Positions 8,956 through 37,363 of a stretch of 64,000 bases of DNA are shown here, piece by piece (the first letter of the stretch is position 1; every line of letters starts with the position of its first letter). This DNA comes from a virus, in IMG/VR virus record IMGVR_UViG_3300022188_000007, positions 1 through 64,000 of that record; one strand, 5' to 3'. The position numbers were made by a program, and so were the translations under genes. A model generated the notes under the pieces. It worked only from the letters and a program-made list of their open reading frames with translations. It did no database searches and had not been told where the DNA came from.

Positions 8956-9600
8956 ATGGGGATACATCATTTAGTCTCATTCTCGGGAGGTTTTGATAGT
9001 ACCTGCGCTGTTTTTTTGCAACTACAAGAAGGTAGCATGCCGGTACATATACACCATATTAATCTTATTAATAGGGAACGTAGAGATATAGCCGAACGAC
9101 TAGCTATTGTAGATATACTTGATTGGCTACGAGACAGCTATACTTTTACATACTCCGAATCTGTGTGTGATGTGAGGCAGGATTCGAAGAGATTTATGTC
9201 GTATGATTATAGATATTATCTACCTATACTGTGTGGTGTTGCATTGAACATGCCCTGTAAAAGAGTTGTACTCAATCTCGGCATTGTAGGATCAAGTGGT
9301 CCAGCGTACAAACCTGGTGGTATACCTTATGAGTTTATAAAAAATTGTTATTTTTTATATAGGAAAGAACACCTTATAAAATTAACGCCTGATATAATGT
9401 GCCCGACATTAGTAGGAAGCAAAAAAAAATTATTAACGTTAATACCACCCGAGTTAGCACGACTAACACATAGCTGCCGTATGCCTTACTTTAAAAATAC
9501 TAAATGGTTAAATTGTGGAAAATGTCGTACGTGCAAGGAAATGAAATTAACTAGAGGGTCGTTTAGAAATACTGACTTTGTTACTGCATTTTTAGAATAA
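8956..9600 (+). CDS. QueC-like PP-loop ATPase
   Basis: A 214-residue protein. SGGFDST (residues 10-16) is the PP-loop of the adenine-nucleotide alpha-hydrolase family. C174, C187, C190 and C193 (as CGKCRTCK) match the zinc-binding tetrad of QueC. QueC makes preQ0, the 7-cyano-7-deazaguanine precursor of queuosine and of some phage DNA modifications. Other QueC-like proteins serve in defence systems (Qat, type IV CBASS). Homology to QueC proper is otherwise weak by eye, so a different substrate is quite possible. No partner gene (queD, queE, folE or a transglycosylase) is visible here. GTTGAGG upstream is a weak ribosome site. Confidence 0.65.
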   Translation: MGIHHLVSFSGGFDSTCAVFLQLQEGSMPVHIHHINLINRERRDIAERLAIVDILDWLRDSYTFTYSESVCDVRQDSKRFMSYDYRYYLPILCGVALNMPCKRVVLNLGIVGSSGPAYKPGGIPYEFIKNCYFLYRKEHLIKLTPDIMCPTLVGSKKKLLTLIPPELARLTHSCRMPYFKNTKWLNCGKCRTCKEMKLTRGSFRNTDFVTAFLE

Positions 9601-9635
9601 TTATTACTTTTAAAAAGTTTTCACACAACATAAAA

Positions 9636-9677
9636 TTGAGGCCTGTCATAAGTATTATTTATTCGACAGGCCTCAAA
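9636..9677. terminator. Bidirectional terminator
   Basis: TTGAGGCCTGTC and GACAGGCCTCAA form a perfect 12-bp stem, with A-rich and T-rich flanks on both sides. It separates the QueC-like gene (+) from the convergent minus-strand operon. Confidence 0.9.
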
Positions 9678-9694
9678 TTAGTGATCAAGTTTTA

Positions 9695-10204
9695 TTATCT
9701 AGGAATAGAGCTAGAATATACAGGTTGTTGGGGACGAGCTTTGAAATTAGGAAGTGTTGTACTGGGAGTATAACCTAAGCCCTCCTGCAAGCACTGTGAC
9801 TGTGGTATTTCATCTCGTTGGTCTTTAATACCATTAACAGCTGCTTGTGTTATCAATGACTTACTTATTCCGGCTTCTGTAGCACACATACATAATTGAT
9901 CTATGTCTATTTTTCTGTCTGCGGCGTATAGATTAACTAAAACCTCATACGGGTTGTACTTTAAATCTACTGACGTTTTCATGACCTCACAAGTGGGATA
10001 GTCTTTATTGGTAGCTAACAATGCTTTGTATGCAGTTTTAAGGATGTCTGAATCATCTTGCGTGTACCCTAGTCCATCAGATTTAGAATTAATTTGCTTA
10101 CCTTTAATTAAAGCTTTAATTAAAGCATCTTCGCCATCAAAGGCTAAAGCGGTAGAATAAGTACCTATAAGTAATACAATTAGTAATATTATTAATTTTT
10201 TCAT
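9695..10204 (-). CDS. Secreted protein, last gene of minus operon
   Basis: A 169-residue protein. Residues 1-21 are a signal peptide (MKKLIILLIVLLIGTYSTALA) with likely cleavage after ALA. The mature part has two short repeats with GLGYT (about residues 44 and 142), and cysteines in LCMCATEAGISKSLI and YPTCEV. The tail is proline-rich. I recall similar secreted proteins in Desulfobacterota, of unknown function. It overlaps the peptide gene upstream by four bases, so it belongs to the same transcript and is coupled to it. It could be an exported partner of the peptide; that is inference. Confidence 0.65.
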   Translation of the reverse strand: MKKLIILLIVLLIGTYSTALAFDGEDALIKALIKGKQINSKSDGLGYTQDDSDILKTAYKALLATNKDYPTCEVMKTSVDLKYNPYEVLVNLYAADRKIDIDQLCMCATEAGISKSLITQAAVNGIKDQRDEIPQSQCLQEGLGYTPSTTLPNFKARPQQPVYSSSIPR

Positions 10205-10392
10205 ACTGAATGTGGTCTCCTTCCCAATATAACCTCTTTACATCTAGTAAGAAAACTAATACTTGGTAAATTGGGCCGCTCCCATGGGGGTTTAGGCTTC
10301 CAGTCTCCTGAATTGCATATAAATACTGTTTCTATAGGCCTCATTAGTTCTGATACTGCTTGGCACTTTGGTTTTATCCATGTTTTTTTCAT
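10201..10392 (-). CDS. Short peptide, RiPP-precursor-like
   Basis: A 63-residue peptide. The start (MKKTWIKPKCQ) followed by IETVFICNSG resembles short precursor-like peptides with the pattern M-K-K-x-W/Y-x-K-P ... E-x-V-x-x-C, which occur near radical-SAM or HPr-kinase-like genes in many Gram-negatives. The rest is proline- and tryptophan-rich with cysteines at 10, 26 and 51. It ends RRPHSV, with a serine at the penultimate position. It sits between the HPr-kinase-like gene and the secreted protein with 4-base overlaps on both sides. No radical SAM, PqqD-type or leader-peptidase gene is next to it, so RiPP status is a hypothesis. Confidence 0.5.
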   Translation of the reverse strand: MKKTWIKPKCQAVSELMRPIETVFICNSGDWKPKPPWERPNLPSISFLTRCKEVILGRRPHSV

Positions 10393-11219
10393 AATAGATC
10401 CTCCTCTATTTTTTTAATAATATTTTTTGATAAATTAAAATATAATTCTCTATGTTTTACGTTTAGTGTATTAAATATCCTATTAGTATATTCTCTAGTT
10501 AACATTAAATAATCTACACTATGTTTATAGAAAGCTAGTTGAGCATTAGTTTTTTTTAATATAAATGGATCAACATGATGATTTAAATAATATACTCTAT
10601 CTACTACTGAGGTCACATTATTAGCTCTATTATAAGAACCATGGCACCAGTGTCCATACATTTTGTTTTTAAGGACTAGTGTTCTATCATCACATAGCAG
10701 AGTCCACCCCTCAACCTCTAGCATCCTTGTTAGTGTCGATTTACCTCTCCCAGAGTCACCTAATAAAATAATTCCTTTATTATTTTTGGTCAGTCCATTA
10801 CCATGCAATAATAGGCCCTCGTTCTTAACTAAATAGGGGTAAAACATTAATTGATCAGAATAAAATAGACATAAATTATTCATTAGGTTTTTATCGTAGT
10901 GTTGTTTCATATGTCTAGGTAACTGTATTATCCAATCAGTATGAGCTTCATTTACTATACCTTTTATTTTATAAGGTTTATAATAATAATGATATAAATT
11001 ATTTTTATCCTTTTGTATAAGCCAATACTTATTTTTAAAAACAATAGTTAACTTTTTAAATGGATTAGTTCGTAATTTAAATACATGTGTAATTTTAATG
11101 TTTGGCTTGGATTTTGCATATTTAAATTTTAATACATTTTCAGTAAACACTAATTCTGCAGGGGTAGGGGTAGTTACTTTGATAACACAATTACAAAATT
11201 TAAAATAGGTCTTATCCAT
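10389..11219 (-). CDS. HPr-kinase-like ATPase
   Basis: A 276-residue protein from the chosen start. GDSGRGKST (about residues 154-162) is a Walker A motif, and LLCDDRTLVL (about 174-183) matches the DDR segment of HPr kinase/phosphorylase-like proteins. The N-terminal half is a basic beta-rich region. Relatives (HprK-rel, ScmC) sit next to short peptide genes, and in lasso-peptide clusters such kinases phosphorylate the C-terminal serine of the precursor. ATG 11219 was chosen over the ATG at 11237, because the latter would lie upstream of the predicted transcription start near 11220. The message would then be leaderless. It heads the three-gene minus-strand operon. Confidence 0.65.
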   Translation of the reverse strand: MDKTYFKFCNCVIKVTTPTPAELVFTENVLKFKYAKSKPNIKITHVFKLRTNPFKKLTIVFKNKYWLIQKDKNNLYHYYYKPYKIKGIVNEAHTDWIIQLPRHMKQHYDKNLMNNLCLFYSDQLMFYPYLVKNEGLLLHGNGLTKNNKGIILLGDSGRGKSTLTRMLEVEGWTLLCDDRTLVLKNKMYGHWCHGSYNRANNVTSVVDRVYYLNHHVDPFILKKTNAQLAFYKHSVDYLMLTREYTNRIFNTLNVKHRELYFNLSKNIIKKIEEDLL

Positions 11220-11226
11220 AACTAAT

Positions 11227-11254
11227 AATATATACATTAATTCATATTTGTCAA
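11227..11254 (-). promoter_or_regulatory. Sigma70-type promoter, minus strand
   Basis: On the minus strand TTGACA lies at 11254-11249, then a 16-base spacer, then TATATT at 11232-11227. The start of transcription would be near 11220, next to the ATG at 11219. This gives the minus operon its own host-type promoter. Confidence 0.75.
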
Positions 11255-11298
11255 TACACTTATTTCATTTACTGGAAATATAGATACTTTTTTATCCA

Positions 11299-11323
11299 TT
11301 TAACTGACCTATTAACTAATAAG
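11299..11323 (+). promoter_or_regulatory. AACC...TAG element, copy 11 (variant)
   Basis: TTTAACTGACC, then 10 bases, then TAA instead of TAG. It lies 65 bases before the PEP-CTERM gene. One base of the AACC core differs (GACC), so this is a weaker copy. Confidence 0.35.
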
Positions 11324-11387
11324 AACTACTAAATACATAATAGAGATACTATGTACTAATAAATTAATATTTAAAAGGAGAATTATC

Positions 11388-12047
11388 ATGAACAAATTAC
11401 TTACATACATTAGCATGTTTTTATTAGTGCTATGTATAAGTACAACTACAAACGCTACGCCGACGTATGTCAACATAGGGGACCGCATTCAAGGAATCGA
11501 TTATAATCCTTTGACCAATGCGGGCGAATTTACTTTGTACGATATAGACACCGGTTATGAGTGGAAGTCTTTCTGTCTAGAAATCAATTCAGCGCTGCCA
11601 CAGCTTACTTATGTAGGAGGATTAAGTGACTCCGCTATACCAGGAGGGGCTGGAGGGGCGGCTTCAACAGGAGACCCTATATCAGATCTTACTGCCTGGT
11701 TATATATCTCATCTCAAACTAATTCGTTATTTGGGTATGATGGTTCTAATAAAGATGCGTATGATTTACAGAATTTAATTTGGTTTGAAGAAGAAGAATT
11801 AACATATGAGGCTACTTATATGGATATGGGTCAGGTTCTACAATGGAGGACTGATTTTGCCTTATCTAATTGGAAAAATGCTGGGGCAGTACAAGTAGTT
11901 AACTTATATACAGATTCGGCTTTTAAAATACATGCACAGGACCAATTAATACTTACACCTACGGTTCCGGAACCAACCACGTTAGTTCTTCTTGGGTGTG
12001 GGTTATTATTTATAGCTTCTTTATATAGAAAGAAAATATTAAATTGA
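11388..12047 (+). CDS. PEP-CTERM sorting-signal protein
   Basis: A 219-residue protein with an N-terminal signal peptide (about residues 1-23, ending TTNA). The C-terminus from residue 193 has VPEPTTLVLLGCGLLFIA and then SLYRKK: the PEP motif, one membrane helix and a basic tail. In bacteria, exosortase cleaves at this signal and the protein is placed outside the cell, in strains that make exopolysaccharide. The middle part is beta-rich (GVDYNP-like NAGEFTLYDIDTGYEWKSF) and unlike anything I can name. A phage gene with this signal would need a host exosortase. RBS AAAAGGAG. Confidence 0.85.
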   Translation: MNKLLTYISMFLLVLCISTTTNATPTYVNIGDRIQGIDYNPLTNAGEFTLYDIDTGYEWKSFCLEINSALPQLTYVGGLSDSAIPGGAGGAASTGDPISDLTAWLYISSQTNSLFGYDGSNKDAYDLQNLIWFEEEELTYEATYMDMGQVLQWRTDFALSNWKNAGAVQVVNLYTDSAFKIHAQDQLILTPTVPEPTTLVLLGCGLLFIASLYRKKILN

Positions 12048-15237: not shown

Positions 15238-15271
15238 ATTAGTATTTCTAAATTATACTAGAGGTTTTTTT
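15220..15271 (+). terminator. Terminator-like stem before hybrid kinase
   Basis: AAACCTCT (15220-15227) can pair with AGAGGTTT (15260-15267) and T residues follow. The loop is about 32 bases, long for a terminator, so this is only moderately supported. Confidence 0.45.
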
Positions 15272-15296
15272 GTGCTTCATCAAAAGGAAGGTGTGT

Positions 15297-18143
15297 ATGA
15301 AAAACTTATTAAAAATAATTATAATATTGATTCTACTTCTAATTCCCGTTATCATTAATAGCACTCCGCCTGAAAAGGTACTGATTGTAGGCTCATTTAA
15401 CTTCCCTCCTGGAATCTTTTTAAATAAACAAGGAGAGACTGAAGGTTTTTTTGTAGATTTATTAGAAGAGATAGCAAAAGAAGAGGGTTGGAAATTAGAG
15501 TTTAGATTCACTACCTGGAGTAAAGGCCTAGAAATGATGAGCAACTCCGAGTTAGACATATGGACCAGTACAGCCTATACTGAGACAAGAGACGAATATA
15601 TGGATTACACCGAAGAGCCTGTACTGACTACGTGGGTGGAGGTGTTCTCTTCAACAAAATCCAAGATAAATAGTATATTCGATCTTAAGGATAAGTCAGT
15701 AGGCATGATGAGGAGAGATATAAATGGCATTATATTTAGGGAATATGCAGATAAACTAGAGATATCTTGTAATATCAGATACTATGAAGATTATGCTAAA
15801 GTATTTGCTGATCTGGGAGCTAATATAATAGATGCAGCAGTCACTAATAATATGGCAGGCGGCTCATATTCTACTAGCCATAAAATTAGACGAACTAATA
15901 TAGTTTTAAGTCCCTTCCTCATTTATTATACTGTTCCTGAAGGAAAAAATATTTATGTACTAGAGGCAATAGATTATTATCTAAAGAAATGGAAACATGA
16001 CGATGACTCTGTATATTACAAATCCCTAGATACTTGGCTACATAAGAAAGCTAATGTACAAAATGTAATACCAAACTCTGTAAAAATTGCTGGTATAGTC
16101 GCTATGTTTGGTTTATTTGTAATGCTTACAATTACTTTACTTTTTAAGAGAAAAATTAAATTAAAATCTAGAGATATATTAGAGAATGAGGCCGACTATA
16201 AATCTACTTTAGAGCATCTTCTTATAGGCATAGTGGTACATAATAAAGACACTGGAATTATAATGTGTAATGAAGAGGCTGAAAAGATATTAGGACTGAC
16301 TCATGATCAAATGATAGGTAAGGGGGTTACAGCGGAGGAATGGAGTTTTGTAGCTGAGGATTTGTCCATAATAAAACTTAAGGACTACCCAGTAAATAAA
16401 GTAATAAATACAGGTAAGCCCCTAAAAGATAGAGTATTGGGAATAAATAGGCCAGATAAGCCTTATACCACTTGGGTACTAGTTAACGCTGTTCCAATAT
16501 TCACAATGACTGGTAAATTAAAAAAAATAATAGTAAATTTCATAGACATTACTCATATTAAACAAACCGAAGAACAATTAATAAAGAATGAACAATTTTT
16601 ATATACTACTAGTAAACTTGCTAAGGTGGGTGGTTGGGAATTAACTAACAAACACACTATAACCTGGTCAAAAGAACTTTACTATATGCACGAGATTCCT
16701 ATAGGTGAGGAGATATCTCTTGATATACTCATTAATGAATTTTTCTCAGAACAAAAGGAACTTATTGATGAGGCATTTACTGAGTTATTTAATAATAAAC
16801 AAAAAATCTCTATCCAATTAAAGCTTATTACAAGAAAAACTAAGACTTTAAAATGGTTAAGAGTTATAGCTACCCCCTTACTAGGAAGTAATGGGGAGGT
16901 TAAGAAGGCCATTGGAGCTACACAAGATATTACCACTGTACATAATTTTGCTAAAGAAAAAGAACTTATGTCTAAGCAACTACAACAATCTCAAAAAATG
17001 GAAGCTATCGGTACTCTCGCAGGAGGTATAGCCCATGATTTTAATAATATCCTTTCTGGAATATTTGGCTACACTCAATTAGCTGAAATGAGTGTAGAGA
17101 CTCCAGATAAAGCCAGGAAACATTTAAAAATGGTAGTATCTAGTGCTCAGAGAGCAGCAGCTTTAGTACAGCAGATATTAACTTTCAGTCGAACATCTAA
17201 TGCTCCTCCAGCCCCCTTAAAAATATACCTTGTAATAAAAGAAGCCATGAAACTACTAAGAGCTTCTATCCCTTCATCTATAAAACTTACTATAGACATA
17301 CAGTCTAAAGATAGTGTTAAGATTGATCCTACTCAAGTGCATCAAGTTATAATGAATTTAGTAACTAACGCATATCAAGCTATTGGTGACGTAGATCAAG
17401 GGGAAATAACTGTAGTGGTAGAACAAAGTTTTGTCGACAAAAAGGGACTAGTACCAAAACTAGGACTAAAATCAGGTAATTATATTAAATTATCTGTATG
17501 TGATACTGGGCCTGGAATGACTAAAGAGGTACAAGAGCGTTTATTCGATCCGTATTTTACTACTAGAGTAAAAAGTAAAGGGACTGGGCTAGGCCTATCC
17601 ATTGTTCATGGAATAATAACAAATGCTGGCGGAAGAATAGATGTTTATAGTGAATTAAATATAGGTTCTTCTTTTCATGTTTATTTACCTATCAGTAATG
17701 AGCTCAGTGAGGAAGAAAAGGGTAAAATAGTAATTACTGATAAAAAACTACTCAAAGGTACAGAAACCCTAATGATAGTAGATGACGAGCCTATGGTGGT
17801 ATCTGCTTTTCAAACCATATTAGGTAAGTACGGTTATAGTGTAGATATATTTAAGAATGGGGCGTTAGGACTAGCTGCGTTCGAAGAGGCACCAACTAAA
17901 TACAATCTAATAATAACTGACCAAACTATGCCTATCATGACTGGTGCTGAAATGTCTAAACATATACTTGAAATAAATCCTAATATACCAATAGTTCTTT
18001 GTACCGGCCATACTACACAAGTAACTAAAGAGCAATGGAAAACTATAGGAATTAAAGGAGTTCTAAGTAAACCAGTACTAACTAGTGATCTTTTGATGGC
18101 TATTAGAACTATACTAAATGAAGAAAACACAGAATGCACTTGA
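15297..18143 (+). CDS. Hybrid sensor histidine kinase, SBP-PAS-PAS-HK-REC
   Basis: A 948-residue membrane kinase. Residues 1-22: signal/first helix. 25-255: SBP_bac_3-type periplasmic solute-binding domain. 264-283: second membrane helix. 300-425 and 435-550: two PAS domains. H-box GGIAHDFNNILSG with phospho-acceptor His580; N-box HQVIMNLVTNA (682-692); G1 DTGPGM (736-741); F-box LFDPYFTTR (749-757); G2 GTGLGL (762-767). Receiver 822-942 with Asp875 and Lys925 (SKPV). All catalytic motifs are intact, so it should be an active kinase. ATG 15297 has AAAAGGAAGG and is preferred over an ATG 27 bases upstream. There is no partner response regulator next to it; the receiver may pass phosphate to host proteins. 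Confidence 0.9.
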   Translation: MKNLLKIIIILILLLIPVIINSTPPEKVLIVGSFNFPPGIFLNKQGETEGFFVDLLEEIAKEEGWKLEFRFTTWSKGLEMMSNSELDIWTSTAYTETRDEYMDYTEEPVLTTWVEVFSSTKSKINSIFDLKDKSVGMMRRDINGIIFREYADKLEISCNIRYYEDYAKVFADLGANIIDAAVTNNMAGGSYSTSHKIRRTNIVLSPFLIYYTVPEGKNIYVLEAIDYYLKKWKHDDDSVYYKSLDTWLHKKANVQNVIPNSVKIAGIVAMFGLFVMLTITLLFKRKIKLKSRDILENEADYKSTLEHLLIGIVVHNKDTGIIMCNEEAEKILGLTHDQMIGKGVTAEEWSFVAEDLSIIKLKDYPVNKVINTGKPLKDRVLGINRPDKPYTTWVLVNAVPIFTMTGKLKKIIVNFIDITHIKQTEEQLIKNEQFLYTTSKLAKVGGWELTNKHTITWSKELYYMHEIPIGEEISLDILINEFFSEQKELIDEAFTELFNNKQKISIQLKLITRKTKTLKWLRVIATPLLGSNGEVKKAIGATQDITTVHNFAKEKELMSKQLQQSQKMEAIGTLAGGIAHDFNNILSGIFGYTQLAEMSVETPDKARKHLKMVVSSAQRAAALVQQILTFSRTSNAPPAPLKIYLVIKEAMKLLRASIPSSIKLTIDIQSKDSVKIDPTQVHQVIMNLVTNAYQAIGDVDQGEITVVVEQSFVDKKGLVPKLGLKSGNYIKLSVCDTGPGMTKEVQERLFDPYFTTRVKSKGTGLGLSIVHGIITNAGGRIDVYSELNIGSSFHVYLPISNELSEEEKGKIVITDKKLLKGTETLMIVDDEPMVVSAFQTILGKYGYSVDIFKNGALGLAAFEEAPTKYNLIITDQTMPIMTGAEMSKHILEINPNIPIVLCTGHTTQVTKEQWKTIGIKGVLSKPVLTSDLLMAIRTILNEENTECT

Positions 18144-23358: not shown

Positions 23359-24018
23359 ATGCAATTTAAAACTAAAGCATTGAAAGACTTATTACTGGAT
23401 GTAGTAGAATACGGGCACGATATTGTCTGGGCTACAGATATTCACCTAACGGTAGTCTATTTCAATGAGGCTATAAAGAACTATGGATGGAAAAGGAAAG
23501 AACTGATAGGTAAAAGTATATTAAACATGATGGATGCCACCTCGTGTAAATTATTTAAAACAACTGTAGCTGAATATTTACCTACCTGTAGAAAAAGTAA
23601 TTGCGTAAAAATTATAGAAACCACTAATTTTTTTAGTAACATGGCAGATACATTTGTTCTTGAATCAGCTTGTAAATTACTATTTGATGACCTAGGTAAA
23701 ATAGTAGGGTTCTATGGAACCAGTAGAGATATTACAAACAAGAAAAAATTAGAACGTATTAATCTAGAAAATGAGCGTTTAAAAGCAATAGTAGAAGTTG
23801 CAGGTGGGGTCTGTCATGAGGCAAGTCAACCATTACAGATAATGAGTGGTTACATTGATCTGCTAGACACCACCACTCTTAATGACGAAGGTACTAGATA
23901 TTTAATAAATCTTCGTTTAAGTATGGAAAGATTAAGTGCTATAATTAGAAAGATACAAGGCATGGAGACCTATAAAACTAGGACTTATTTAACTACTAAT
24001 ATAATGGATATAAAATAA
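23359..24018 (+). CDS. PAS-DHp protein without ATPase domain
   Basis: A 219-residue protein. Residues 13-125 form a PAS domain (VYFNEAIKNYGWKRKELIGK, and FYGTSRDIT). Residues 140-205 are a dimerisation helix pair with the H-box GGVCHEASQPLQIMSGY, phospho-acceptor His153. The catalytic ATP-binding domain that normally follows is absent: the protein ends about 15 residues after the second helix. It could take phosphate from another kinase, compete with host kinases as a dimer partner, or act as a phosphotransfer protein. The gene is not visibly truncated by a stop in a homologous remnant; PilZ follows 9 bases later. Confidence 0.75.
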   Translation: MQFKTKALKDLLLDVVEYGHDIVWATDIHLTVVYFNEAIKNYGWKRKELIGKSILNMMDATSCKLFKTTVAEYLPTCRKSNCVKIIETTNFFSNMADTFVLESACKLLFDDLGKIVGFYGTSRDITNKKKLERINLENERLKAIVEVAGGVCHEASQPLQIMSGYIDLLDTTTLNDEGTRYLINLRLSMERLSAIIRKIQGMETYKTRTYLTTNIMDIK

Positions 24019-24027
24019 GGATTAATT

Positions 24028-24279
24028 ATGGAAAAAGAAAAAAGAAAATATAAACGAGTCAAATTTAAAAATTATGTAAATTTAATAAATAAAGATGAAA
24101 AATTTAAAGTAAAATCGATAGATGTATCCCAAAAAGGTATGTTTATAAGTACACATGTTTTTAATGTAGGAGATAAATTAATCGCTATATTTTCAGTACT
24201 TCTCAATATACCATTTAGAAGAGATGGTATAGTTGTCAGAAAGAATACGGAGGGAATAGGTATTCAATTTTTAAAATAG
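24028..24279 (+). CDS. PilZ-domain protein
   Basis: An 83-residue single-domain protein. R6-K-Y-K-R10 supplies the RxxxR motif and D32-V-S-Q-K-G37 the (D/N)xSxxG motif that bind cyclic di-GMP; GIGIQFL closes the barrel. Both motifs are intact, so binding is expected. It would be a cytoplasmic c-di-GMP receptor, able to buffer or report the host signal that controls motility and exopolysaccharide. Start has TAAGGA. It lies between the PAS/DHp gene and the metacaspase. Confidence 0.8.
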   Translation: MEKEKRKYKRVKFKNYVNLINKDEKFKVKSIDVSQKGMFISTHVFNVGDKLIAIFSVLLNIPFRRDGIVVRKNTEGIGIQFLK

Positions 24280-24309: not shown

Positions 24310-25173
24310 ATGAAGAAAGCATTTCTTGTAGGAATTAATAAGTACTCTAATTCGGCCCTTAGAGGGTGTGTTAATGATGTAATTACAATATTCCAAATAT
24401 TGACATCTAAATTCGGTTTTAAGGCAGAAGAAATTAAAGTAGTATCTGACTATGAGGCTACTAAAGAAAACATCGTAAACGGGCTAAAATGGCTTACTAC
24501 AGGTGTACAATCAGGTGATACTATTGTATTCCATTATTCAGGTCATGGGTCTCAGGTTATGGTAGATGATTTAACTTCCACAAACGAGGCAGATGGTAGA
24601 GATGAAATTCTATGCCCAGTAAATTTAAACTGGAGCGACCCTTTAAGAGATCATGAAGTGGGTGCCTATTTTAAAAGAGTTCCAAAGGATTGTACCACTC
24701 TAGTTATTCTAGATTGTTGTCATTCTGGTACTGGTTTAAGGAATGGCTTTGCCGCTGGTGACAAGTATACCGAAAAGGATTTTATTAATAGATTTATATC
24801 ACCCCCATTATCTAATATATTAACTAACTCTTCAGTTATTATAACAGAAGATTTTTCATTTGATTTTCCAGACCCACAAGTAAATAGGCGAGCTAAAAAG
24901 AATAACTTTTTGATAAATACTATAGATCAAGGAGATGCTATCTTACTAGCGGGTTGTGAAGAGAATCAAACAAGCGCTGACGCTTGGATTAATCACCAAT
25001 ATAGAGGAGCAATGACCTATTCTCTAGCACAGACTTTAAATAAATATAATTATGATATATCGTATAGCAAGTTGATGACAGAGATGAATAAATTCATGGA
25101 CAGTTTTAGGTATACCCAGAATCCACAATTAGAATGTAATAAAAGTTTTTTCAATAAAAAATTCTTAAAATGA
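24310..25173 (+). CDS. Metacaspase (caspase-fold peptidase, C14)
   Basis: A 287-residue type I metacaspase-like protease. FHYSGHGSQ (residues 74-82) places catalytic His79, and LDCCHSGTG (134-142) places catalytic Cys137, with D135 before it. The p10-like part has GCEENQTSADAW and, near the end, TQNPQLECN. The whole catalytic domain is present and nothing else is fused to it: no propeptide, signal or effector domain. Metacaspases cut after Arg or Lys and need calcium; in bacteria they are linked to stress and programmed death. RBS GAGAGGAGG is very strong. It ends just before a sigma70 promoter that starts a new unit. Confidence 0.9.
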   Translation: MKKAFLVGINKYSNSALRGCVNDVITIFQILTSKFGFKAEEIKVVSDYEATKENIVNGLKWLTTGVQSGDTIVFHYSGHGSQVMVDDLTSTNEADGRDEILCPVNLNWSDPLRDHEVGAYFKRVPKDCTTLVILDCCHSGTGLRNGFAAGDKYTEKDFINRFISPPLSNILTNSSVIITEDFSFDFPDPQVNRRAKKNNFLINTIDQGDAILLAGCEENQTSADAWINHQYRGAMTYSLAQTLNKYNYDISYSKLMTEMNKFMDSFRYTQNPQLECNKSFFNKKFLK

Positions 25174-25637: not shown

Positions 25638-26408
25638 ATGGCAAGACTATCTAGAGTTTTTAGTAGAAAAGGACGTAAGAGTAATAGCAATGAGAAGTCG
25701 GCTTTAATGCAGAGAATGGCTTCTAGAACAATTAATAATAACCCCAGCGACGAGCACTTATTGGGGGATCTATTTATTACTGTAGAAAATGAAGAGATAG
25801 TAGATCTTACTAATAAACACACCCCTATCCCTAACAGGCTTAAAGTCGGTACTGAAATCAAACATATGGAAAGCTCTGGTAGTTTAAATTTTGATGGTAG
25901 AGATACTAATTTAAATATTAGAGACAACGGAGATTTTAATTTCGGTATTGATGACTTTTCAATAGATTGGTGGGAATACCAACTTCCTGATCCTGGAGGA
26001 TGGGAATTAGAAATCTCGCCCATTCAATATTCCATGTATAAAAACTCAGTAGATAAAAAACAACCATTCCAAATACTTAATCGGCCAGACAAAGTTATAT
26101 CTATTTCTAGTAATGGGGATAATTGGGGTATAGCTGATGACAAGCATATAGGTACGGTTGAAGTTAATAAATGGATTCATTGGGCAATAACTAGGTCTAA
26201 TAATAATTTCTATACGTTCAAAAATGGGATTATAAAGAATATATGGGAATCTGAAGAACCTATTAATGACTCTGATGGCTATTTAACTTTCGGTAGTAGT
26301 CCTAAAGGTAACAACTTTTATGGTTATATGGACAAGATACGTGTAATAAAAGGTACTACATTATGGACTGATGAATTTAAACCAACTAAAGAAGATTTAT
26401 TTTATTAA
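25638..26408 (+). CDS. LamG-like protein
   Basis: A 256-residue protein. Residues 1-40 are basic and serine-rich (MARLSRVFSRKGRKSNSNE). From about 42 a LamG/concanavalin-like fold follows (GSLNFDGRDTNLNI, FSIDWWEY, HIGTVEVNKWIHWAITRS, GYMDKIRVIKGTTLWTDEF), closely like the LamG part of the protein at 641. It lacks the RPT module and the discoidin domain. It probably belongs to the same surface-binding set. RBS AAAGGAG. Confidence 0.7.
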   Translation: MARLSRVFSRKGRKSNSNEKSALMQRMASRTINNNPSDEHLLGDLFITVENEEIVDLTNKHTPIPNRLKVGTEIKHMESSGSLNFDGRDTNLNIRDNGDFNFGIDDFSIDWWEYQLPDPGGWELEISPIQYSMYKNSVDKKQPFQILNRPDKVISISSNGDNWGIADDKHIGTVEVNKWIHWAITRSNNNFYTFKNGIIKNIWESEEPINDSDGYLTFGSSPKGNNFYGYMDKIRVIKGTTLWTDEFKPTKEDLFY

Positions 26409-34902: not shown

Positions 34903-34962
34903 ATATACATGTGGGGGAGAACTCCCGAGATATTAATTAAGAAAAAAAAGGATTTAAGAATT

Positions 34963-35544
34963 ATGGTACCATACGTTATTGAAGCAGGTAAGAATGATCA
35001 GGAAAAAGTATATGACATTTATTCAAGACTTTTGAAAGATAGAATTATTTTTATTAGGGGAGAGTTCGACCATGACCTAGCCGACGCTGTAACTGCACAA
35101 CTCTTATTCCTAGAGTCAGCTGATCCAGATAAAGACATCTTCATGTACATAAACAGTCCTGGAGGAGTGATAGATTCCATGTATAGTATTTATGATACGA
35201 TGAATTACATCAAACCCGATGTATGCACACTTGCTTATGGGCAGGCTTGTTCAGCCGGCTCTTTTATTTTAGCAGCAGGTGCTAAAGGAAAAAGATTTGC
35301 TTTACCTAACTGTAACATTATGATCCATGAGCTATCTGGTGGGAACCAAGGTAAGTTCCACGACATGGAAAATAGTTTTAATAAGACAAAAAATTTATAT
35401 GAAAAAATGGCTAAACATTATGTAGAATTTACTGGGCAGAAACTAGCTAAGGTTAAGAAAGATATGAAAAGAGATCACTACATAAGTTCAGAGGAAGCAG
35501 TAAAATACGGACTGATTGATAAGGTCCAGCATACAAGAGGCTAA
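34963..35544 (+). CDS. clpP: ClpP-family serine protease
   Basis: A 193-residue ClpP. GQACSAGS holds catalytic Ser97, MIHEL His122, and RDHYISSEEA Asp171; YINSPGG (63-69) is the oxyanion/strand motif. Length equals that of bacterial ClpP (about 193-200). In phages a ClpP-like protein can act as prohead maturation protease or pair with host ClpX. ATG 34963 follows AAAAAAGGATTTAAGAATT. A leaderless start at 34909, in frame, would add 18 basic residues. It heads the 35-44 kb operon, well upstream of the portal. Confidence 0.9.
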   Translation: MVPYVIEAGKNDQEKVYDIYSRLLKDRIIFIRGEFDHDLADAVTAQLLFLESADPDKDIFMYINSPGGVIDSMYSIYDTMNYIKPDVCTLAYGQACSAGSFILAAGAKGKRFALPNCNIMIHELSGGNQGKFHDMENSFNKTKNLYEKMAKHYVEFTGQKLAKVKKDMKRDHYISSEEAVKYGLIDKVQHTRG

Positions 35545-36190: not shown

Positions 36191-37363
36191 ATGAATGCAA
36201 AGAATTTTAATAAAACTAAGGGTCCACAAGAGCGTGTACCGAAAATTAAAAATAAGCATGCAAGTGCTGGAGACGAGGAAGTTATGGTAGAAGATACAAC
36301 AAGACCGGCAATAGAAGAGCCCGTAATTGAGCAGGTAATTGAGGAAACGCCTTTAGTGGAGGGAGATCCAGGGCATAAGGGTTTAGATATCGGAACTAAT
36401 ATGTTAGTAGTGGGGAGTATGGATTCAGCAGGGGACGCGTCCTTTAAAATGCAGCGAGATGCTTTTTATAGAATAGAGCCTAAGTCTGAAGTTAATAAAA
36501 ATAGTATTAGAATGTCTTTAGATAAAAGGAAAGCTAGTTATATAATTGATGATGATGAATCGTTTATAGTAGTAGGAGAGGATGCCCTAGAAATAGCAAT
36601 TGAACGACACGACAAAGCTGAACGACCTTTACAGAGAGGGGTAATTTCTCCTCAAAATAAGAAATCATTACCTATGTTGAAATACATTATTAAAGATTTA
36701 CTAGGTCCAGCAAAACCAGGAGCTAAAGTAGTTTATTCAGTACCAGCAGCTCCTACTGATACTAATTTTGATATCGTATATCATACTGAGATTATGGGTA
36801 TGTATTTGAAAGAGTTAGGTTATTCCTCCTCGCCTATAAATGAGTCTTTTGCTATAGCTTTATCAGAACTACTCGATGAAGGACTTACAGGCGTCTGCTT
36901 GTCTTATGGGGCAGGCATGACTAATTGTGTAGTCATCCATCAAGGAGATCCTTTAGTGGAGTTTAGTTTAACTCGGTCCGGAGATTACATTGATCAATCC
37001 GTAGGGAGAGCGCTTGATATTTCACCCAGTCTGGTACAACAGGAGAAGGAAGCTGGTATAGACCTTAATAAACCTGAAGGTGAAATAGCAGAGGCTATAT
37101 CTGTATATTACAGTGCGGTAATTAAATATACATTAGAAAATATAGCATATGAGCTGAGTAAACGAAAGAAAGATTTACCTATTTTTAGGGAAGAAGTCCC
37201 GCTAGTTGTAGCTGGTGGTTTGACTTTAGCTAATGGTTTTGTACCTAAGGTACAGGAGACCATCATTGGTTTAGATTTTCCATTAAAAATTGGGACAGTA
37301 AGAAGAGCCGCTGAACCCATGACAACTGTTGCGCATGGGTGTCTACTAGCTTCTCATTTATAG
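36191..37363 (+). CDS. Actin-like ATPase (ParM/MreB fold)
   Basis: A 390-residue protein. After a flexible 55-residue N-terminal arm, KGLDIGTNMLVVGS (phosphate-1) near residue 63, GVCLSYGAGMTNCVV (phosphate-2) near 235 and LVVAGGLTLANGF (adenosine) near 345 mark the actin fold. PSLVQQEKE and the following helices fit subdomain IB. Phages use such filaments for DNA positioning or as a cytoskeleton. Sits between the coiled-coil protein and the endolysin. Confidence 0.75.
   Translation: MNAKNFNKTKGPQERVPKIKNKHASAGDEEVMVEDTTRPAIEEPVIEQVIEETPLVEGDPGHKGLDIGTNMLVVGSMDSAGDASFKMQRDAFYRIEPKSEVNKNSIRMSLDKRKASYIIDDDESFIVVGEDALEIAIERHDKAERPLQRGVISPQNKKSLPMLKYIIKDLLGPAKPGAKVVYSVPAAPTDTNFDIVYHTEIMGMYLKELGYSSSPINESFAIALSELLDEGLTGVCLSYGAGMTNCVVIHQGDPLVEFSLTRSGDYIDQSVGRALDISPSLVQQEKEAGIDLNKPEGEIAEAISVYYSAVIKYTLENIAYELSKRKKDLPIFREEVPLVVAGGLTLANGFVPKVQETIIGLDFPLKIGTVRRAAEPMTTVAHGCLLASHL

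Follow-up and report, generated by a model that had tools for sequence, protein, structure and literature searches.

Described kinase–precursor systems and the phage locus

Bacterial RiPP clusters often include an HprK-like kinase, and to our knowledge the substrates and phosphorylation sites of these kinases are known only for lasso peptides. In SynChlorMet (ScmC/ScmE/ScmF) and in the Chloroflexota cassettes described below, an HprK-like kinase lies beside a short Cys-containing peptide led by K-x-[WY]-x-[KR]-P, and these cassettes hold the best cellular matches to the phage kinase reported here. In contrast, the phage unit has no radical SAM protein, PqqD or adjoining S24-type peptidase, and its ScmC score lies below the cut-off. 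In lasso clusters, HprK homologues phosphorylate the C-terminal Ser of the precursor (PMC8498205). These kinases (paeninodin kinase, ThcoK, SyanK) are likewise HprK-type enzymes paired with a precursor, and the Priestia paeninodin-family precursor also starts with MKKxWxKP, whereas the phage unit has no adjoining lasso cyclase or B protein and its peptides have no C-terminal Ser. With bacterial HprK/P, the phage kinase shares the predicted catalytic core fold, the His, Walker A and DD, but it scores below the Pfam/NCBIfam cut-offs and the HprK N-terminal domain is unmatched in it. As for modified peptides borne by phages, the sublancin 168 cluster resides in SPbeta (PMC8270828), and a 2021 report of another case appears in the list given in PMC8991392. 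The view of the sequence-only reading, that a phage carrying a peptide-modification unit is undescribed, is thus superseded by sublancin. Sublancin is, however, an S-glycosylated bacteriocin made with a transporter, oxidoreductases and an immunity gene, whereas here only a kinase and a precursor are present. The novelty lies in phages that pair an HprK-type kinase with a precursor while lacking PqqD and radical SAM; no published pair of this type in a phage was found in the literature searched, which was thin in subscription papers.

The stretch of DNA analysed here (the window) comprises bases 1–64000 of a virus record of 144,485 bases in total, which carries terminase and portal genes; very long ORFs downstream were taken for tail genes. 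The features of the locus are as follows, with the evidence in brackets.

10389–11219, minus strand, predicted HprK-related kinase (NCBIfam matches, Foldseek, orthologue in a related phage)
10201–10392, minus strand, predicted RiPP-type precursor peptide, 63 aa (hhalign, orthologue in the related phage, codon pattern)
9695–10204, minus strand, secreted protein, 169 aa (signal peptide and 4-nt overlap in the sequence)
11227–11254, minus strand, probable sigma70-type promoter, TTGACA-16-TATATT (11/12 consensus, similar layout in the related phage)
9636–9676, no strand assigned, 12-bp stem-loop, probable bidirectional terminator (sequence, fold energy)

The three ORFs lie head to tail on the minus strand with ATGA overlaps of 4 nt, and they run against nearly all of the window, in which the plus strand carries 74 of the 77 non-overlapping ORFs of at least 80 aa; both the overlapping arrangement and the opposite orientation had been read correctly from the sequence. 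The kinase gene has a G+C content of 27%, compared with 35% for the window, and Shine-Dalgarno sequences precede the peptide gene (GAGGAGG) and the secreted-protein gene (GGAGA). Just upstream of the kinase start, TTGACA-16-TATATT at 11254–11227 matches the consensus at 11 of 12 positions, and promoter-like sites in the region are in total no more numerous than in shuffled sequences. Since a TTGACA and a −10-like element also precede the kinase ATG of the related phage at about equal distance, the sigma70 promoter proposed for the operon is probably real, and it probably yields a nearly leaderless mRNA. Between the operon and a convergent QueC-like gene (8956–9600; PHROG 1550, 7e-15), the hairpin at 9636–9676 folds with −24.1 kcal/mol (z = −5.8 against shuffles). 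Of the shared convergent terminator claimed earlier, the strong hairpin between convergent genes therefore stands, while its role in termination is only likely because the T tract is short. The protein encoded at 11388–12047, adjoining the operon, has a signal peptide and a PEP-CTERM sorting motif, which suggests a host with an exosortase.

The kinase, the peptide and their cellular relatives

The kinase is 276 aa long when read from 11219 and 282 aa from an upstream ATG at 11237; numbered from the latter, it keeps H145, the Walker A sequence GDSGRGKST and LLCDD. In Pfam/NCBIfam profile scans it matched HprK_rel_A (9.3e-10), ScmC (8e-9), HprK_rel_B (2e-8) and Hpr_kinase_C (2e-3), the HprK superfamily matches spanning about residues 131–200. 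The match to HprK_rel_A (TIGR04352) reaches 38.1 bits over residues 139–188 only, below the curated cut-off of 200 bits, and that to ScmC 35.2 bits against a cut-off of 125 bits. Because the scores are far under every curated cut-off, we assign the protein, on its sequence, as a divergent HprK-related kinase outside the named subfamilies. The N-terminal part of about 130 aa matched no family, including the HprK N-terminal domain, and the kinase may contain an unrecognised leader-binding domain. An AlphaFold model built from four sequences only is of low confidence (mean pLDDT 58; about 65–82 around the P-loop), and with this model the first 26 PDB matches in Foldseek were all HprK/P chains (E 5e-6), so that the modelled fold appears to resemble HprK. 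The features of HprK-superfamily P-loop kinases, namely the His, a Walker A of the form GxSGxGKS/T, DD after the following strand and an HprK fold, were thus all found or predicted, and the earlier identification as an HprK-like kinase is borne out by profiles, motifs and Foldseek alike. A likeness to elastase in a PDB sequence search was judged to be due to chance.

Cellular relatives were collected by scanning a genome collection with the kinase alignment, which gave at least three loci that were used as entry points to three phyla. Kinase relatives were found in 5 of 349 Bacillota genomes (entry Halalkalibacter), 17 of 301 Chloroflexota genomes (entry an Anaerolineales genome) and 28 of 399 Pseudomonadota genomes (entry Paracoccus). 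Among the 18 Chloroflexota kinase loci, several of which are near-identical, 11 have a small ORF with a K-x-[YW]-x-x-P leader on the same strand within 500 bp, against an expectation from flanking DNA of about 0.02 per locus; the Pseudomonadota set together with two plasmid loci has such an ORF at only 3 of 32. All of these loci were gathered via the kinase, and peptide homologues distant from kinases would be missed. PqqD and radical SAM occur in the Chloroflexota cassettes, which often encode a Peptidase_S24-like protein as well; in one precursor cassette the gene right after the kinase encodes a secreted peptidase of the C25 family that has cadherin-like domains (L073 7664–11221). In the closest cellular kinase match, an HprK-like domain is joined to a radical SAM/SPASM protein, and one more protein of this build was detected. 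Each of these Chloroflexota fusions (L075 5870–7879 and L082 373–2535) has a further radical SAM protein after it, and the precursor-like ORFs near them are KKSWQRPQLIVLARANPQEAVLTHCKT... and KKQWQKPELIVLVRGKPEEAVLATCKI..., that near the best match reading KKSWQRP...PQEAVLTHCKT. Some plasmid relatives of the kinase lie in lasso or PqqD clusters, with adjoining precursors MKKEWKKPEL... and MKKAYVKPEL....

The phage peptide has the leader MKKTWIKP and a conserved block PIETVFICNSGDW...PPW, and the Chloroflexota precursors beside HprK-like kinases can be aligned with it over the K-x-W-x-K-P leader and the E-[ST/A]-V-[FL]..C block. When the two phage peptides were compared with 13 cellular precursors by hhalign, the match had a probability of 89, an E-value of 2.3e-6 and a score of 31.9, and none of 300 column shuffles of the phage peptide alignment did as well (mean 9.0, maximum 17.6). 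Leader and Cys block (MKKTWIKP ... IETVFI-CNSG) make up the matched part, and the remaining core differs. The window's peptide alone matched the cellular profile weakly (E 0.03 to 0.15) and was the best-scoring of all phage ORFs at an E-value (0.03) that is only suggestive, so the significance of the homology rests on both phage peptides together and on kinase adjacency. A peptide-only search of plasmids gave chance-level matches only. With a leader homologous to precursors that adjoin HprK-like kinases in bacteria, the 63-aa peptide is predicted to be a RiPP-type precursor, as had been supposed for the middle gene.

The C-terminal serine that had been put forward as the target of the kinase, in contrast, does not survive the comparison. 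The peptide ends in HSV, that is, in Val, its C-terminus is not conserved (that of the related phage ends in CTVQC), and a C-terminal phosphosite was ruled out on this ground. A Ser stands at Cys+2, in CNSG, in both phage peptides, and Ser or Thr occupies this position in most cellular precursors. Further downstream, the cellular cores have Cys residues that hardly vary; the phage peptides have not retained these at their positions and so seem to have lost the part presumed to be the radical-SAM substrate.

A related phage and the mobility of the pair

A terminase search led to a relative of 189 kb, IMGVR_UViG_3300033146_001382 (G1050), with a terminase 86% identical; both phage records are classed as linear and may be incomplete. 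The relative carries an orthologue of the kinase, 50% identical and reversed, and likewise reversed the peptide MKNWTKPTLTKTNSTALPIESVFICNSGKWENPPWDTAPP.... The two peptides conserve PIE[ST]VFICNSG.W...PPW, and over the 13 codons of the core 4 are identical, 7 differ synonymously and 2 nonsynonymously. The genes flanking the unit in the relative are colinear with the window. There the unit sits between the equivalents of window 24028–24279 and 25638–26408, and not near those of 8956–11388. In the window this slot holds a caspase-domain gene (Peptidase_C14, 5e-35) at 24310–25173, which makes it a variable accessory site, occupied here by the caspase gene and in the relative by the kinase–peptide pair.

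The pair is known from two phages only. The kinase was not found in 44 of 45 relatives searched, which are mostly fragments, and single-sequence searches of 50,697 phage records and IMG/VR gave no direct relatives of the kinase or the peptide. Scanning IMG/VR with an alignment of the two kinases recovered the related phage and nothing else, and a DNA pattern for VFICNSGxW gave the related phage and one other match, which lies in a tail gene but in a different reading frame and was rejected as chance.

The third gene, which the sequence-only reading had counted as part of the unit, is separable from it. No homologue of the secreted-protein gene was found in the 189-kb relative, where it is missing beside the pair, and a homologue 43% identical occurs in a 238-kb related phage (G1051; L187 1336–1905) in which the kinase was not found. 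We thus rejected it as a defining part. The two proteins share LCMCATE and QSQCL stretches and belong to no named family; weak Pfam matches of the window's protein to adenovirus hexon and glycosyl hydrolase 70 were judged to be chance. Since the unit occupies a different site in the relative and the third gene is missing there, the comparison of the two records points to the kinase and peptide as the conserved unit, a mobile two-gene unit that has changed place.

Proposed role of the pair and other genes of the window

We propose that the kinase and the peptide form a mobile phage moron derived from a bacterial RiPP cassette, in which the kinase phosphorylates the peptide, an explanation that we regard as reasonably probable. 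The ancestor would have been a cassette of the order [PqqD]-[radical SAM/SPASM]-[Cys-containing precursor]-[HprK-like kinase], of which just two members, the kinase and the precursor cognate to it, would have been retained in the phage and be expressed from their own promoter. The kinase would then recognise the peptide and phosphorylate a hydroxyl in the conserved block, and the resulting phosphopeptide would target the host or competing phages. Their pairing makes it probable that the peptide is a substrate of the kinase. The site is a more tentative matter: Ser28 of C-N-S-G is proposed because the C-terminus is not conserved, whereas a Ser lies at Cys+2 in both phage peptides and Ser or Thr in most cellular precursors. 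It is possible, if doubtful, that the whole amounts to a phage phosphopeptide effector, a RiPP of which only the precursor and a single tailoring enzyme, the HprK-type kinase, remain; phosphorylation of the internal CNSG serine would then be its entire maturation, and an accessory slot would house the mobile unit.

Radical SAM or PqqD genes elsewhere in the phage, for which a search had been suggested, did not turn up: there was no PF04055 match at E ≤ 10 and no PF05402 match in either the 144-kb record or the 189-kb relative, and neither a lasso cyclase (asparagine-synthetase-like) nor a B2 protease was found among the window proteins scanned. This absence from both phages would also be expected if the phage supplied a foreign or decoy precursor and a kinase to a PqqD/radical-SAM cassette of the host, redirecting or blocking the host product, since the host would then provide these enzymes, and the leader is indeed common to cellular precursors beside PqqD and radical SAM. 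We consider this unlikely, as the phage peptides do not preserve the positions of the Cys residues of the cellular core and no matching host cassette was seen.

More improbable still is a toxin-antitoxin or superinfection-exclusion module, in which the kinase would neutralise or activate an inhibitory peptide by phosphorylation. Two genes with overlapping frames and their own promoter, reversed, at different sites and of low G+C, would suit such a module, and the position of the relative's unit in the slot of a caspase gene suggests an accessory or defence locus; however, no known toxin-antitoxin family was matched in the Pfam, NCBIfam and PHROGs scans, and RiPP ancestry explains the leader motif better. 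Least probable is that the kinase targets a host protein, such as HPr or another regulator, with the short ORF as a bystander or kinase regulator, for although the modelled fold is that of HprK and the distance from all named subfamilies is as expected of a retargeted enzyme, the short ORF is conserved at the protein level, moves with the kinase and has homologues among the precursors next to kinases of this type.

If, as we propose, the kinase phosphorylates the peptide, a unit of only these two genes, free of radical SAM and PqqD, would offer a natural system in which the kinase step stands alone and can be tested directly. Phages would moreover be shown to carry a phosphopeptide as cargo, of which we know no report.

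Other genes of the window include a hybrid sensor histidine kinase of 957 aa at 15270–18143 (SBP_bac_3, PAS, HisKA, HATPase and response regulator domains), whose counterpart in the related phage is 74% identical, and a short PAS/HisKA protein at 23359–24018. ClpP is encoded at 34909–35544, and a Volactin-family actin-like protein at 36191–37363 (8e-58) is 85% identical in the related phage.
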